The notes: generated by a model not told the origin, from the letters alone. A stretch of DNA of 64,000 nt from an uncultured Gammaproteobacteria bacterium (GCA_937899415.1 CALBPI010000061.1:62001-126000), one strand, 5' to 3'; positions 54,423 to 61,692 are shown, counted from the stretch's first letter. A program made the numbers and translations.

Positions 54423-55307
54423 TTACATCTTGCGCCGGACGATGAGTTCGGCGAGGACTTGCAGGGGTACCGCGTTGGCGCCGAAGCCACTCAGCGCGTC
54501 GAGCCCCTCGGCGTAGAGCTTGTCGCACTCCGCCTTTGCGGCATCCATGCCGAAAATGGCCGGCCAGGTGGCCTTGTCATGGGCGACGTCCGAACCGGCG
54601 GGCTTGCCAATGGTCTCCGTGTCGCCCTCGACGTCGAGGATGTCGTCGCGGATCTGGAAGGCTAGCCCGATACGGTGTGCGTAACGCTCGAGCGCGGCGT
54701 GCTGATCCGCCGCCAGGTCGGGCACGCGCGCCGCCGCCATGAGCACGGCGGCCGAGATGAGTGCACCCGTTTTGAGCTCGAACATGCGGCGCAAGGTGTC
54801 GCCACTGATGCGCTGTCCCTCGGACTCGATGTCGATGGCCTGGCCGCCCGTCATGCCCAGCGAACCGCAGGCCCGAGACAGCACGTGCACCATGGTCAGC
54901 TGGCCCGCTGCATCGCCGCCCTCGGGGCCGGCCAGCACTTCGAACGCCAGCGGCTGCAGTGCGTCGGCCGCGAGTATCGCCGTGGCCTCGTCGAATTGCC
55001 GGTGCACGGTGGGCTTGCCGCGTCGTAAATCGTCGTCGTCCATGGCCGGCAAGTCGTCGTGCACGAGCGAGAATGCGTGAATGAGCTCCACGGCCACGGC
55101 CGGCGCGTCGAGGTGCGCGGCGTCGATGCCTAAGACCTCGCCCGTGGCGTAGACGAGCAACGGTCGAATACGCTTGCCGCCGTTGAGCGTGGCGTAGCGC
55201 ATGGCCTCGTGCAGGCGCGTGGGCTCCACGTCGGCAGCAGGCAGGGTTCGCGCCAACACCGTGTCGACCCGGGCGATATAATCAGGAATGGCATCTTCGA
55301 ACGACAT
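54423..55307 (-). CDS. ispA: Geranyl/farnesyl diphosphate synthase
   Basis: The 294-residue prenyltransferase has the first aspartate-rich motif in HDDLPAMDDDDLRRG (about 80-94), the second in FQIRDDILDVEG (about 215-226), and GGKRIRPLL near 42-50. It condenses isopentenyl and dimethylallyl diphosphates to geranyl and farnesyl diphosphate. ATG 55307 starts MSFEDAIPDYIARVD, the normal N-terminus. It diverges from the mevalonate genes, whose products are its substrates. exo-type xseB and dxs, its usual neighbours in E. coli, are absent. Confidence 0.93.
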   Translation of the reverse strand: MSFEDAIPDYIARVDTVLARTLPAADVEPTRLHEAMRYATLNGGKRIRPLLVYATGEVLGIDAAHLDAPAVAVELIHAFSLVHDDLPAMDDDDLRRGKPTVHRQFDEATAILAADALQPLAFEVLAGPEGGDAAGQLTMVHVLSRACGSLGMTGGQAIDIESEGQRISGDTLRRMFELKTGALISAAVLMAAARVPDLAADQHAALERYAHRIGLAFQIRDDILDVEGDTETIGKPAGSDVAHDKATWPAIFGMDAAKAECDKLYAEGLDALSGFGANAVPLQVLAELIVRRKM

Positions 55308-55382
55308 GCGGCTCGTCTGTTGGCTGGTGGCGTGGGTGGTACCCGCCCATTTTGCCGCTAACGTCTGCGCCCGGAAACCGAT

Positions 55383-56384
55383 TTGATACAGAGTTCCAGC
55401 AACAGCCCGCGGCAAAGCGAGAACGCGGCCACCGTCACGGCGACGGCGCACCCGAATATTGCGCTCGTCAAGTACTGGGGTAAGGCTAGCGAGGCGCGCA
55501 ACATCCCCGCTGTCGGGTCCTTGTCGCTGACGCTCGATGGCCTGGCGACGACGACGCGCGTGGCCGCGGCGGATGAAGACCGATTCGAACTGAACGGCGA
55601 CACCGACGCCAGCATGGGCCAGCGCGCCTTCGCGTTCCTCGACCAGTACTGGCCCGGGCGCCCGGCGCTTGATATCGCGAGCGACAACAATTTTCCGACT
55701 GCCGCCGGTCTGGCGTCCTCGGCATCGGGGTTTGCGGCGCTGACGCTGGCCGTCGACAGCTTGCTCGACGGCGGCCGCGACCGGGAGTCGCTGGCGCAGT
55801 GTGCCGGTTCGGGTTCGGGCAGCGCGGCGCGGTCGCTGTTCGGCGGTGTGGTGCGGCTCGATCCGCCGGCGCAGCGCGACGGCGACATACGCGTGCGCCA
55901 GGTGGCCGAGGCCAGCGATTTTCCGCTCGAGCTCGTCATCGCCGTGACCTCGGCCGCGCGTAAACCCATCGGGTCGACCGAGGCCATGCGGGCCACGGCG
56001 GCCACCTCGCCCTACTTCGACGCCTGGGTGCGCGACCAGGCGCAGGACCTTGATGCTGCCGAGCAGGCCGTGGCCGCGCGCGACTTCGATGCGCTGGCGG
56101 CCGTCACCGAAAAGAGCTGCATGAAGATGCACGCTGTGATGCTCGGCAACGATCCCTGGCTTCTGTACTGGAACGCCGCCACCGTGGCCTGCATCCACGA
56201 AGTTCGCGTGCTGCGCGCGTCGGGACTCGGCGTCTGCTTCACGATCGACGCCGGGCCGCAGCTCAAGGCCGTCTGCCTGCCCGAAGATGCCGACCGCGTC
56301 GCCGAAACCCTGGCGGGCGTAGACGGCGTGACCGACGTGTTGCGCGCGTCACTGGGCCGCGGCGCATTCCTGCACAGCGCGTGA
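55383..56384 (+). CDS. mvaD: Diphosphomevalonate decarboxylase
   Basis: A 333-residue GHMP-family enzyme: ATAHPNIALVKYWGK (about 20-34), the phosphate loop in FPTAAGLASSASG (about 102-114), the arginine-serine loop SGSGSAARSLFGG, and the catalytic aspartate in FTIDAGPQ near 285. It converts diphosphomevalonate to isopentenyl diphosphate using ATP. The start appears to be TTG 55383, since no ATG or GTG precedes the conserved HPN motif; the ribosome site is weak. It begins 75 bases from the divergent ispA start and is followed ten bases later by mvaK2. Confidence 0.92.
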   Translation: MIQSSSNSPRQSENAATVTATAHPNIALVKYWGKASEARNIPAVGSLSLTLDGLATTTRVAAADEDRFELNGDTDASMGQRAFAFLDQYWPGRPALDIASDNNFPTAAGLASSASGFAALTLAVDSLLDGGRDRESLAQCAGSGSGSAARSLFGGVVRLDPPAQRDGDIRVRQVAEASDFPLELVIAVTSAARKPIGSTEAMRATAATSPYFDAWVRDQAQDLDAAEQAVAARDFDALAAVTEKSCMKMHAVMLGNDPWLLYWNAATVACIHEVRVLRASGLGVCFTIDAGPQLKAVCLPEDADRVAETLAGVDGVTDVLRASLGRGAFLHSA

Positions 56385-56394
56385 GACGCGATTC

Positions 56395-57405
56395 GTGAAT
56401 GCTGCGCCTACGCGCCGCGTCCGGGTACCCGGCAAGCTCATGCTCTGCGGCGAATACGCCGTTCTCGCCGGCGCACCCGCTGTCGTCACCTGCGTCGACC
56501 GCTACGTCGTTGTCGATGCGCGGCCGACCTATGATGGCCTGGCGCCGGTCAGGCTGCGCGGCTTTGACGGTGACACCTACCACTACCGAATGACCGGTGG
56601 CGTTCCGACGTGGGAGACACCGGGTGCTGCGACGGCGCTCACCGATGCCGTGCTGCGCACGGTGCAACCGCTCAATACTGCGCTCGTTGTCGATTCGACC
56701 GCGTTTTACGATCAGGGGCGCAAGCTCGGCCTCGGGTCGAGTGCGGCTGTGGCCGTCGCGATCTGCGCGGCGTTGGGGGATGGCGACCGGGTTGTCGACG
56801 CGCTGCCACAGGCACTGGCCGCACACGCGCAATTCCAGGGCGGGCGCGGTTCGGGCGCAGACCTTCGGGCAGTCGCTCACGGCGGCACGATTGTTCAGCG
56901 GGCCGATGAGCAGGGCGCTTTGGCATCGTCACTCGGGTGGCCTGCCGGGCTCGAGGCGCGCGCCATCATGACCACGCAGTCCGCAGCCACGCTCGACCAT
57001 GTCCGTCGCTTTGAGGCCTGGCGCGCCAGCGATGCCAACGCATCTGTTCGGCTCTACGGGCTCGCGGCGGCAGCATCGCACGTTGTGACCGAGTGGCAGC
57101 GTGCCGACGCAGCGGGGATAATTGAGGCGATGAACGCCTTCACGCACGAGATGCGCCACATCGACGCGGCCGCTGGCCTCGGTTACTTCGCCGGTGGCCA
57201 CGACACCTTGGCTGAGCTTGCGTTGGCGCACGGCTGCTTCTTCAAGCCCTGTGGCGCAGGCGGTGGCGATTTTGGTATCGCGTTGTCCACGTCCCGCGAC
57301 GTGCTCGACGGCTTCGCCGCGGCGGCCGTTGCGGCGGGTGCCGCAGCACCGGAGATGACGTTGGGGCTTGCGACGCCCGAGATTGCGACCGAGGTCCCCG
57401 CATGA
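56395..57405 (+). CDS. mvaK2: Phosphomevalonate kinase (GHMP kinase)
   Basis: The 336-residue kinase has PGKLMLCGEYAVLAGAPAVV (12-31), KLGLGSSAAVAVA (about 108-120) and PCGAGGGDFG (about 289-298), matching the three GHMP motifs in phosphomevalonate-kinase style. It makes diphosphomevalonate from phosphomevalonate. The start is GTG. Its stop overlaps the next start by four bases (ATGA), coupling it to the trifunctional gene. Given that a separate mevalonate kinase domain is present downstream, assignment as the phosphomevalonate step is well supported by context. Confidence 0.87.
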   Translation: MNAAPTRRVRVPGKLMLCGEYAVLAGAPAVVTCVDRYVVVDARPTYDGLAPVRLRGFDGDTYHYRMTGGVPTWETPGAATALTDAVLRTVQPLNTALVVDSTAFYDQGRKLGLGSSAAVAVAICAALGDGDRVVDALPQALAAHAQFQGGRGSGADLRAVAHGGTIVQRADEQGALASSLGWPAGLEARAIMTTQSAATLDHVRRFEAWRASDANASVRLYGLAAAASHVVTEWQRADAAGIIEAMNAFTHEMRHIDAAAGLGYFAGGHDTLAELALAHGCFFKPCGAGGGDFGIALSTSRDVLDGFAAAAVAAGAAAPEMTLGLATPEIATEVPA

Positions 57406-60212
57406 CCTCGGTGTTCTCAGGCTTTTACCGTCTCGCACTGACCGACCGGCTGTCGACGCTGCATGAGGCTGGCGTCATTACAGCCCATGATTACGCGGCG
57501 CTCTCGAGTGGCGACATCACGCTTGACCGGCACGTGGCGGAACACCTGATTGAGAATGTCATCGGCGTGGCCGGATTGCCGTTCGCCGTGGCGCTCAACT
57601 TCAAGATCAACGGAATCGATCGGCTCGTGCCCATGGTCGTTGAAGAGCCCTCGATTGTGGCGGCGCTGTCTTCGGCCGCAAAACTCGCAAGGGCGGCGGG
57701 TGGTTTCCGCGTCACGGCCGACCCGGCGCTCATGATCGGCCAGATCCAGCTGCTCGATGTCGCCGACCCTGAGGCGGCCAAAGCGGCCGTTGAAGCGGCG
57801 CGTGAGCAGATCCTCGACGCGGCCAACGCCGTACATCCGAATCTCGTCAAACGCGGCGGTGGCGTCCGCGATCTGACGTTGCGCGCCTATGCGCGGCCGT
57901 CGGGTGGGCACATGCTTATCGTGCACTTGCTCATCGACACCTGCGATGCGATGGGTGCGAACCTTATCAACACGATTTGCGAACAGGTGGCGCCGCTCGT
58001 GGGCGGCATTGCCAAAGCGCGGCCGCACCTTCGCATCCTGTCCAATCTTGCGGACGCCGCACTCGTCCACGCCGAGATGCGCATACCGTTGGCCGAGCTT
58101 GGCGCCGATGAGGCCGAGGCGGTGCACGTGCGCGACGGTATCGTCGCGGCCAACGAATTCGCCGTGCTTGATCCGCACCGTGCTACGACGCACAACAAGG
58201 GCGTCATGAACGGCATCGACGCCGTCGTGGTCGCGACCGGCAACGACTGGCGCGCTGCCGAAGCCAGCGCGCACGCCTGGGCGGCACGCGACGGTCAGTA
58301 TCGCGCGCTCACCGACTGGCGTGTTGATGAGAATGGCGATCTGCTGGGCAGCATGAGTCTGCCGATCAAGCTCGGCATCGTTGGCGGTTCCGTCCGGCTC
58401 AATCCCGTTGCCAAACTGGCGTTACGACTCGCCGGCATCGAACACGCGCGCGAACTCGACGCCCTGGCTTGCGCCGTGGGCATCGCGCAAAATTTTTCGG
58501 CGCTCAAGGCGCTCGCGACCGATGGCATTCAGCGTGGCCACATGGCCCTGCATGCACGCAGCGTCGCTGTGCAGGCCGGTGCCCGCGATACCGAAGTCGA
58601 CGAGGTGGTCTCGGCCATGGTGGCCGAGGGTGTCGTCAAGACCTGGCGGGCACGCGAGCTCATCGAGGCCGCACGCCTGCGCTCGCCCGGTCGCCCGCCG
58701 CGTACCTCAATCGGCGAAGTGTCGAGCGCAGCCAAGCTCATCCTGGCTGGCGAACACGCGGTCGTATACGGCCACCGCGCATTGGGGCTGGCGCTGCCAC
58801 GCGCGTTGCGTGCCGAAGTGTTCAGTGGTCGTGAACTGCTCACGATCGGGATCGACGACTGGCAGCTTGAGTACGATGCCGGCGACGATGCTGATCACCG
58901 CAGTCCGCTGGGCATGCTCGTCGACACGATTATCTCGCTGGCCGAGATCGAGATGCCGCATGGCCACATCGAGGTGTCGTGCCAGATTCCGTTCGCCGCG
59001 GGTCTTGGCGGGTCGGCGGCACTGGCCGTCGTGCTCATTCGCGCCATCGCCATGCTGACGGAGCAACGCTTCGACGACGCAACAGTCAACGAGATGGCCT
59101 TTGCCTGCGAGAAACTCGCGCACGGCACACCGTCGGGTGTGGACAACACGCTCTCGACCTACGCACGGCCCATGCTGTACACCCCCGGCAGCGACACGCG
59201 TTTCAGCGACGTTCGCATCGGTGGGCCGTTGCAGCTTGTTGTCGGCTTCAGCGGCTTGAAAGGCGTGACCTCGGAACTCGTCGCGGGCGTGCGTGATCGG
59301 CGCGCGCGACAGCCCGAGGTGTTCGACGCAATGTTCAATCAGATCGACGGCGTCGTCGAACAGTGCCTGCATGCCTTAGCCGATGGCGACACGCAGCGAC
59401 TCGGCGACAGCATGAACGTGTGCCAGGGCCTGCTGAACGGGATTGGCGTGAGCCACCCCGTGCTCGAGCAGATGCTGGCCATCGCGCGCGGCGCCGGTGC
59501 GATTGGTGCCAAGCTTACGGGCGCCGGCGGTGGCGGTTCGATCATCGCGCTGTGCGATGGCGACGCCGAGGCCGTGGCGGCCGCGTTGCGCCAGGCCAGC
59601 TTCGAGGCGCGCGTGATTCCCATCGAACCGACGGCCGACGTGGACCCTGTGGTCTCGTCAGAATCCGAGGAACTCATCCTCGTCGATACCGATGACCAGC
59701 CGATTGGTTACTTGTCCAAAGCGGACGCGCATAATGGCGAGGGCATCCTGCACCGCGCGTTCTCGTTGTTCGTATTTAATGAGCAGGGCGAGGTGTTGTT
59801 GCAGCAGCGTGCTGTCGGCAAGCGTCTTTGGGGCGGCTTCTGGTCGAACAGTTGCTGCTCACACCCGCGTCGCGGCGAGCATCTCGATGAGGCCGTTCAC
59901 CGGCGTCTTGAGCAGGAGCTCGGTTGTGCGGCCGAGCTCGAGTTCGTCTACAAGTTTTGCTACCAGGCGTCGTTTGGCGCGGCGGGCAGCGAGCACGAGT
60001 TGTGTTCCGTGTTCGTCGGTCGCATGACGCGCCCCGTACAGGCGAACCGCAACGAAGTGGCGGACTGGAAATTCATGGCGCCCGAAGCTGTCGACGCACT
60101 GGTCGCCGATGATACGGCCAACGTGACGCCCTGGTTTCGCATGGAATGGCGGCGCCTGCGCAGCGAGTACGCGGAACGGATCGCGGCCCTGACGGAGCCG
60201 ATGCAGGCCTGA
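57402..60212 (+). CDS. Trifunctional HMG-CoA reductase / mevalonate kinase / IPP isomerase fusion
   Basis: One 936-residue frame encodes three complete enzymes. Residues about 1-430 are class II HMG-CoA reductase with catalytic residues in VVEEPSIVAA, HNKGVMNG, ATGNDWRA and RGHMALHAR, and the dinucleotide motif DAMGANLIN. Residues about 440-745 are mevalonate kinase: AKLILAGEHAVVYG, FAAGLGGSAALAV, HGTPSGVDN and KLTGAGGGGS. Residues about 760-936 are type 1 IPP isomerase (Nudix) with SNSCCSHP and the EHE metal site. Short serine/glutamate-rich linkers join them. Steps 2, 3 and the final isomerisation are thus covalently linked. It overlaps mvaK2 by four bases and converges on mvaS. Confidence 0.93.
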   Translation: MTSVFSGFYRLALTDRLSTLHEAGVITAHDYAALSSGDITLDRHVAEHLIENVIGVAGLPFAVALNFKINGIDRLVPMVVEEPSIVAALSSAAKLARAAGGFRVTADPALMIGQIQLLDVADPEAAKAAVEAAREQILDAANAVHPNLVKRGGGVRDLTLRAYARPSGGHMLIVHLLIDTCDAMGANLINTICEQVAPLVGGIAKARPHLRILSNLADAALVHAEMRIPLAELGADEAEAVHVRDGIVAANEFAVLDPHRATTHNKGVMNGIDAVVVATGNDWRAAEASAHAWAARDGQYRALTDWRVDENGDLLGSMSLPIKLGIVGGSVRLNPVAKLALRLAGIEHARELDALACAVGIAQNFSALKALATDGIQRGHMALHARSVAVQAGARDTEVDEVVSAMVAEGVVKTWRARELIEAARLRSPGRPPRTSIGEVSSAAKLILAGEHAVVYGHRALGLALPRALRAEVFSGRELLTIGIDDWQLEYDAGDDADHRSPLGMLVDTIISLAEIEMPHGHIEVSCQIPFAAGLGGSAALAVVLIRAIAMLTEQRFDDATVNEMAFACEKLAHGTPSGVDNTLSTYARPMLYTPGSDTRFSDVRIGGPLQLVVGFSGLKGVTSELVAGVRDRRARQPEVFDAMFNQIDGVVEQCLHALADGDTQRLGDSMNVCQGLLNGIGVSHPVLEQMLAIARGAGAIGAKLTGAGGGGSIIALCDGDAEAVAAALRQASFEARVIPIEPTADVDPVVSSESEELILVDTDDQPIGYLSKADAHNGEGILHRAFSLFVFNEQGEVLLQQRAVGKRLWGGFWSNSCCSHPRRGEHLDEAVHRRLEQELGCAAELEFVYKFCYQASFGAAGSEHELCSVFVGRMTRPVQANRNEVADWKFMAPEAVDALVADDTANVTPWFRMEWRRLRSEYAERIAALTEPMQA

Positions 60213-60228: not shown

Positions 60229-61692
60229 TCAGGCTTGGTAGTGGTAGTACTCGATCCCGATGTCCTGGAACTTTTGCGCCTCGGCGCGACCGACACGTGC
60301 GACGAAGAACTCGCTGCCTTTGGGCTGCGGCAGGTCGGCCACGGCGCGACCGTCGTGCAGGGCTTCGTACTGCGCCTGCGTGAGGTCGATGGGATCGTCG
60401 AGTGCGGCCGAGAATTGAATCCGTGCTGTCGCTTCGCGCCAGCCAGCTACCACGGTCATCGGAATGACCTCGGCGGCATCTCCGCTGCCGTAACCCAGCG
60501 TCAGGATTTCCTGGCCTTCGAGTTCGAGGTCACGCTCGAGTGCTTCTTCAAAGCCGGCTGCCATCCAGGCCGGCAACGCGGCCGTGTACAGGTTGCCGAG
60601 ATCGCGCATGCGCTCGCTGCCCAGTGACAGCTTGTCGAGCACGATGGACTGGAACGCATCGGAGGCACGGAAGGCCCGGATCAGGCCCATCGTGAGCGGC
60701 ATGGCATCTTCGTTGAGATGGTCGGCATCGGCGAGCGCCGAGACGTCGTGCTGGCTCGTCAGCTCTTCGATCACGGCCTCGACGGGCATACCCGCGGGCT
60801 CCGCGTAGCGTGCAAGCTCGGCGTGTTCTTCGGCGCCGCCTTGTGCCAGTGCCCACATCCAGGCGACGGCCAGGCCGTTTTCGGGCATGCGGCGGTAGGG
60901 ACGGTGCATGAAGATGTGCGGGAGCGACCGAATGTGCTCGGCGGCGTCGATACCGCGGCGCTCGTACATGTCGGCGAGCGCGTGCAGCGTTTCGTCGATG
61001 TAGCAGGTGGTCGAGTACTTGCCGTTGAACACGGGGTAGTCCTGCACCTGGTGGGTTTCGCTGCGATCCTGGCCGCAAAAACGCATCATTGGCTTTCTGA
61101 AGTCCATGATGCGGTAGTCGGAAGCGCTGCCACTGGCGGCGAGGTCGACCGCGGCGAGCTTGGGGTCTTCCTCCACCAGCATCGCCACAGCACCGGCACC
61201 CTGTGTGGGTTCGCCGCTGCTGCCGCGCTGGTACTCGGCGATGTCGGCGCAGACCACAATGGCCTTGCTGCCACGCCCGTCGCAGGCCAGCGCACGAATG
61301 GCGGCCTTCATGGCGTACACGCCGCCGAGGCAGGCGTGCTTGAATTCCGGGACTTCACAGGCGCGGGACAGCGGTGCCCGGCCTTCTGCGCGCAGTGCGC
61401 TGTCGATCATGCCCTTGATGATCACAGCACCCGCAGAATTATCGAGGCTCGACTCGGTGCCCAGGCCCAGGAAGCGGACTTCGGAGGCGTCGATATCGTA
61501 GTTACGAATCAGGCGCAGGACGGCGGTCGCCGCCATGGTGTAGACGCTATGCTGCTGGCCCCGCATGCGGTAACTGGCACCCACCACTTCGCGCATTTTG
61601 GGCCACTGCTGACCGGTCCAGTCGCACCATTGTTCGAGCTGGACCCGGTAGGGCGGTACATACGCCGCGAGGCCGCTGATTCCAATATTCAT
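60229..61692 (-). CDS. mvaS: Hydroxymethylglutaryl-CoA synthase
   Basis: The 487-residue thiolase-fold enzyme has the active-site cysteine in EFKHACLGGVYAMKAAI (about 115-130), GTESSLDNSAG before it, HRPYRRMPENG supplying the histidine, and GYGSGDAAEVI near the C-terminus. It condenses acetoacetyl-CoA with acetyl-CoA. It is longer than the roughly 390-residue Gram-positive enzymes and closer in size to eukaryotic and some proteobacterial forms. ATG 61692 (MNIGISGLAAYVPPYR) is preferred over TTG 61701. It faces the fusion gene with 16 bases between stops. Confidence 0.88.
   Translation of the reverse strand: MNIGISGLAAYVPPYRVQLEQWCDWTGQQWPKMREVVGASYRMRGQQHSVYTMAATAVLRLIRNYDIDASEVRFLGLGTESSLDNSAGAVIIKGMIDSALRAEGRAPLSRACEVPEFKHACLGGVYAMKAAIRALACDGRGSKAIVVCADIAEYQRGSSGEPTQGAGAVAMLVEEDPKLAAVDLAASGSASDYRIMDFRKPMMRFCGQDRSETHQVQDYPVFNGKYSTTCYIDETLHALADMYERRGIDAAEHIRSLPHIFMHRPYRRMPENGLAVAWMWALAQGGAEEHAELARYAEPAGMPVEAVIEELTSQHDVSALADADHLNEDAMPLTMGLIRAFRASDAFQSIVLDKLSLGSERMRDLGNLYTAALPAWMAAGFEEALERDLELEGQEILTLGYGSGDAAEVIPMTVVAGWREATARIQFSAALDDPIDLTQAQYEALHDGRAVADLPQPKGSEFFVARVGRAEAQKFQDIGIEYYHYQA

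Follow-up and report, generated by a model that had tools for sequence, protein, structure and literature searches.

The 64,000-nucleotide stretch of DNA analysed here (hereafter the window) contains a cluster of mevalonate (MVA) pathway genes, one of which combines class II HMG-CoA reductase (HMGR), mevalonate kinase (MK) and type 1 IPP isomerase (IDI) in a single reading frame (Table 1). The fusion frame starts with ATG, comprises 936 codons without an internal stop, and overlaps the stop of the upstream phosphomevalonate kinase (PMK)-like gene by 4 nt (ATGA).

Table 1. Features of the mevalonate cluster and of the fusion gene, in positions of the window
Feature	Position	Strand	Remarks
Farnesyl diphosphate synthase (FPPS; IspA-like)	54423..55310	-	NF045485, 334 bits; conserved neighbour by synteny
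Diphosphomevalonate decarboxylase (MVD)	55407..56384	+	TIGR01240, 250 bits, above cut-off; ORF opens at 55383, start codon provisional
Phosphomevalonate kinase-like GHMP gene	56395..57405	+	Best family TIGR01220, below cut-off
HMGR-MK-IDI fusion ORF	57402..60212	+	One frame, 936 aa, 99.7 kDa
Class II HMG-CoA reductase part	57402..58676	+	Residues about 1-425; TIGR00532, 363 bits; phmmer to 1qax/6dio about 1e-113
HMGR-MK linker	58677..58709	+	About residues 426-436; pLDDT under 50 at 429-433
Mevalonate kinase part	58710..59624	+	Ends with last predicted strand, residues 735-741; TIGR00549, 226 bits; phmmer to 2hfs/4hac
GTGA, frame +1 TGA overlapping in-frame GTG	59613..59616	+	GAGG 5 nt upstream; possible IDI start or chance match
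MK-IDI linker	59625..59669	+	Residues 742-756
Type 1 (Nudix) IPP isomerase part	59652..60212	+	Catalytic C819, E864, E866; TIGR02150, 152 bits
HMG-CoA synthase (HMGS)-like gene	60229..61692	-	Pfam HMG_CoA_synt_N/C; TIGR01835, 169 bits, below cut-off; convergent with fusion; conserved neighbour

Domain searches agreed with the initial annotation, which had described one uninterrupted 936-residue frame carrying the three enzymes in this order. Pfam analysis of the translated protein revealed the families HMG-CoA_red (2.8e-99, residues 15-385; PF00368 at 333 bits versus a cut-off of 27), GHMP_kinases_N (2.7e-12), GHMP_kinases_C (2.3e-15) and NUDIX (2.6e-17). The NCBIfam profiles for class II HMGR (residues 2-385), MK (residues 443-717) and type 1 IDI (residues 758-914) also scored above their curated cut-offs of 260, 163 and 106 bits, respectively. 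The match of three families in one frame is far beyond chance. The thiolase domain that is the hallmark of MvaE is absent from the fusion protein by Pfam.

Alignment to solved structures recovered the catalytic set E82, K266, D282 and H380 of HMGR, corresponding to E83, K267, D283 and H381 of the P. mevalonii enzyme. The MK part contains K445, E451-H452, the motif GLGGS (534-538), E570, D581 and the motif GAKLTGAGGGG (702-712), and the IDI part has H777, H784, C819, H821, E864, E866 and W911. The known catalytic residues of all three enzymes are thus intact, as had been claimed, and those of HMGR and MK are invariant across 42 aligned relatives. The residue of the fusion HMGR opposite P. mevalonii D146, a determinant of NADH preference, is H145; a histidine at this position makes it possible that the fusion HMGR uses NADPH in the biosynthetic direction. 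A degradative role, as the name of TIGR00532 would suggest, is unlikely because this HMGR is joined to MK within a biosynthetic cluster.

The AlphaFold2 model predicts all three domains with confidence (mean pLDDT 85.9), together with a low pTM of 0.53. The last strand of MK, EARVIPI (residues 735-741), is encoded in frame 0; a loop of about 15 residues (742-756) then leads to IDI. The linker between HMGR and MK varies among relatives in both length and sequence. Given the low pTM, no fixed arrangement between the parts is predicted, which speaks for joint production and local concentration rather than channelling.

The order FPPS(-), MVD, PMK, HMGR-MK, IDI, HMGS(-), with identical strands, is found in Woeseiaceae records and in the window's GTDB family. 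The loci with this order (L017, L022, L024, L025, L027, L030, L031, L032, L037, L041, L052 and L076) are named Woeseiaceae and unclassified gammaproteobacterial MAGs that group with Woeseiaceae. This shared order makes it most likely that the host branches deeply within Woeseiaceae or stands close to that family. Within the family set, no gene copies diverge more than those of the window, and this holds equally for all seven cluster genes; the pattern suggests a deep lineage and nothing peculiar to the fusion. An accelerated evolution of the fusion was rejected, as its long branch (1.12) is common to all cluster genes. Two genes of the cluster scored low against their profiles. The PMK-like gene reaches 67 bits versus a curated PMK cut-off of 166, has no Pfam match and, with a mean identity of 35%, shows the lowest conservation in the cluster. 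The HMGS-like gene is long (487 aa) and falls short of the prokaryotic HMGS cut-off of 360 bits; despite the low profile score, it is well conserved within the family (mean identity 63-79%).

The gene order also bears on the integrity of the contig. A chimeric contig, in which the IDI part belongs elsewhere, has nothing in its favour beyond the uniqueness of the frame, and synteny already contradicts it: throughout Woeseiaceae, idi lies right after HMGR-MK and is followed by HMGS on the opposite strand. Moreover, the IDI part matches its nearest relatives within the family at 61-62% identity, and shares the even divergence of the seven genes. With such a conserved order a misjoin need not be invoked, and we regard this explanation as hardly conceivable.

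To place the first two parts, one genome per species was scanned for 84,980 species, and the best 80 loci were kept and their frames read. Frames that join HMGR and MK occur among these loci in Nevskia, Rhodanobacter, Dyella, Salinisphaera, Woeseiaceae, other Gammaproteobacteria and a few Planctomycetota MAGs; the following ORF, which often overlaps, is idi. In myxobacteria, HMGR and MK are separate genes. Overall, the two domains share one frame at 84 of the 92 distinct loci carrying both. The HMGR tree unites 82 fused rows in one clade (SH-aLRT 99); a single Zixibacterial fused row sits outside on a long branch. The window row was lost from this tree in de-duplication and was placed instead in a three-domain tree, where it has a long branch and, with weak support, falls between the rows of Woeseiaceae and the rest. 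The tree topology suggests that the HMGR-MK fusion probably had a single origin in MVA-using Gammaproteobacteria. The window gene shares with these genes the joint frame of HMGR and MK and the clustering with MVD, PMK and idi; it departs from them in that its frame does not end after MK ahead of a separate idi.

Several loci of the scan stand apart. Five Planctomycetota MAGs with HMGR-MK (L002, L003, L035, L043 and L044) group with Salinisphaera, by inter-phylum transfer or as misbinned contigs. The frame of the Zixibacterial MAG outside the gammaproteobacterial clade (L054:9914-12247) is possibly an independent fusion. One Myxococcales MAG (L036:9893-12331) has a fused HMGR-MK, unlike other myxobacteria, and two gammaproteobacterial MAGs (L014 and L026) possess HMGR-MK without an adjoining idi.

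The third part is found joined in the window genome alone. Across 82 distinct MK/idi junctions, the MK stop is present in all 81 others and missing only in the window. No second uninterrupted MK-IDI match appeared in 107 family genomes, in 396 order genomes, or in 369 class and 399 phylum genomes, all searched under strict E-value limits that could miss very divergent cases; under the default limit, none was present among the matches listed for 296 order genomes. Likewise, the best 80 loci of the 84,980 species genomes contain no other case of the order HMGR-MK-IDI. The joined idi thus amounts to 1/107 family genomes and 1/396 sampled order genomes, each time the window genome itself. The three-part join is a single copy, from a genus represented among the genomes searched by this one alone. 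Ten hits that were considered as further three-part fusions because of a listed open frame of over 900 aa or another suspicious frame (G006, G026, G023, G040, G179, G032, G035, G220, G043 and G141) were rejected on reading: in each, a stop separates MK from IDI, or IDI lies in another frame. One small family genome (G025) carries the MK-IDI region in two copies on contigs C13 and C15, through duplication or contamination.

The survey of family, order, class and phylum and the species-level scan thus bear out the statement that no standard bacterial gene has this three-part order. The initial interpretation is supported in part: the complete order is unique among the genomes searched, whereas its HMGR-MK two thirds are ordinary in these Gammaproteobacteria, where idi is nearly always the next gene. 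In several family members, idi already lies in the frame of MK, with one or a few stop codons between them, so that stop loss would be enough for the join. Judged from these frames, the step from two to three parts is a small one, with one gene boundary lost.

The junction itself was inspected for signs of an artefact. For residues 736-752, the codon model gives +7.0 bits for frame 0, versus -11.5 and -8.4 for the other frames. Where relatives end MK, the window has GAA at codon 742 (59625-59627), one substitution from a stop; a single change here would suffice to mimic the join. Counted back from the site of residue 751, the idi genes of relatives mostly start at a distance of 7 or 8 codons, most commonly 7; the window codons at these positions are ACG (744; 59631-59633) and CCG. 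No ATG precedes idi, the in-frame GTGs at codons 747 and 750 have weak Shine-Dalgarno (SD) energies, and the position at which idi usually starts lacks a strong SD signal. Nearby, the other frames hold a single stop, the TGA at 59614, which lies inside the stretch that codes for the MK strand 735-741 in frame 0. A frameshift upstream of the GTGA was rejected as the cause of the join, since the last MK strand is still coded in frame 0 beyond it.

These features allow us to weigh the alternative that the organism really has HMGR-MK and a separate idi, and that the joint frame stems from an error of sequencing or assembly at the base level or from a variant of a minority strain. Such an origin would accord with the MK stop of all other distinct junctions, with a join that is unique among the genomes searched, and with the single substitution that separates codon 742 from a stop at the very site where relatives end MK. 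However, that substitution alone would restore the stop and still leave idi without an ATG, with ACG at codon 744 and only the weak-SD GTGs behind it. An upstream indel would remove the last MK strand; after a downstream indel, the first stop is met at codon 764 in frame +2, and frame +1 stays open through codon 800. With neither the MK stop nor the usual idi start present, the join is unlikely to be the product of one base error. Many relatives start idi with GTG or TTG rather than ATG, and the missing ATG should be taken as supportive of a real join, not as decisive. Altogether, we consider an error or variant quite improbable and the three-part join likely real; the fusion is probably a real and recent novelty, though a modest one.

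A different question is whether idi is mainly, or also, made as a free protein from the GTG at 59613, giving free IDI beside tethered IDI; this possibility overlaps with the fusion reading. The GTG, codon 738, is preceded by GAGG with a duplex energy of -5.9, compared to -6.6 at the start of the whole ORF, and relatives carry idi as a coupled gene of its own. On the other hand, equal SD-like energies precede the in-frame codons 725 and 729 in this GC-rich sequence, and the start would fall within the last MK strand. Some free IDI could perhaps arise from this codon, but we think it unlikely that idi is expressed in this way.

The fusion protein appears to be the host's sole route to isoprenoids. 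The host genome (98.4% complete) has one HMGR and one type 1 IDI above cut-off; a type 2 IDI above cut-off was absent from it, and a family search of the same genome detected neither of the MEP markers Dxr and GcpE. As the MVA pathway yields only IPP, and Idi is required for DMAPP (PMC13001223), the fused IDI should be essential. With no alternative HMGR or IDI and neither Dxr nor GcpE, the fusion protein should carry three essential steps of the host, and a broken fusion should be lethal. Of 36 relatives, six have Dxr, and all six belong to those without an HMGR-MK match, which indicates that the MVA and MEP pathways replace each other. In these order-level genomes, HMGR-MK and Dxr look mutually exclusive, as in a clean MEP-to-MVA swap inside one order.

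The present analysis leads us to favour, with a probability of about 0.8, one polypeptide with three working mevalonate enzymes that arose in two steps. We propose that a first fusion, probably a single event, joined HMGR and MK in an ancestor shared by many Gammaproteobacteria that use the MVA pathway, and that the boundary between HMGR-MK and the downstream idi was then lost in the window lineage only, joining IDI via the loop of about 15 residues. From the sequence we infer that the cell makes the protein at full length and that each of its three parts works as an enzyme. HMGR would produce mevalonate, which the tethered MK would then phosphorylate; the separate PMK and MVD, encoded by the two upstream genes of the same operon, would convert the product to IPP, and the tethered IDI would supply DMAPP for the neighbouring FPP synthase. 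The fusion may thereby link the entry and exit of the lower pathway, as the initial annotation had envisaged, and its likely effect is a fixed stoichiometry and co-production of the entry step, the trapping step and the final isomerisation. That the stepwise loss of boundaries produced a natural trifunctional enzyme whose tethered IDI is kinetically or regulatorily advantageous, rather than neutral, is a tentative and somewhat doubtful extension of this proposal.

If confirmed, this gene would be the first case, within the reach of our searches, of three mevalonate-pathway enzymes fused into one. It would complete a stepwise fusion series from separate genes in Myxococcota, through HMGR-MK in Gammaproteobacteria, to HMGR-MK-IDI in the window. 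For the three-part form there is a single gene from a single genome, and fused genes are already familiar from isoprenoid pathways. The two-part HMGR-MK enzyme is common to many MVA-only Gammaproteobacteria and is absent from the papers searched; no description of an HMGR-MK or HMGR-MK-IDI fusion was found in open-licence papers. Both fusions offer ready-made parts for isoprenoid engineering, as well as a test of mevalonate trapping or channelling between HMGR and MK.

Compared with known systems, the window gene is a new combination of known enzymes by a known type of event. Its closest counterpart is the HMGR-MK gene of Woeseiaceae, Nevskia, Rhodanobacter, Dyella and Salinisphaera, which has the same domains, the same linker position and the same MVD/PMK/idi cluster; there, the frame stops after MK and idi is separate, whereas IDI is joined in the window. 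MvaE (PMC5764709) is likewise a natural bacterial fusion of HMGR with another mevalonate-pathway enzyme, but the partner is the upstream thiolase (AACT) instead of MK and IDI. The diatom IDI-SQS (PMC12168105) is also a natural fusion of IPP isomerase with a non-adjacent isoprenoid enzyme; unlike the window gene, it is eukaryotic and joins IDI to squalene synthase. Similar to the window gene, IspDF (PMC13001223) fuses enzymes of non-consecutive steps in isoprenoid precursor synthesis, but it belongs to the MEP pathway, has two domains and is common in bacteria.
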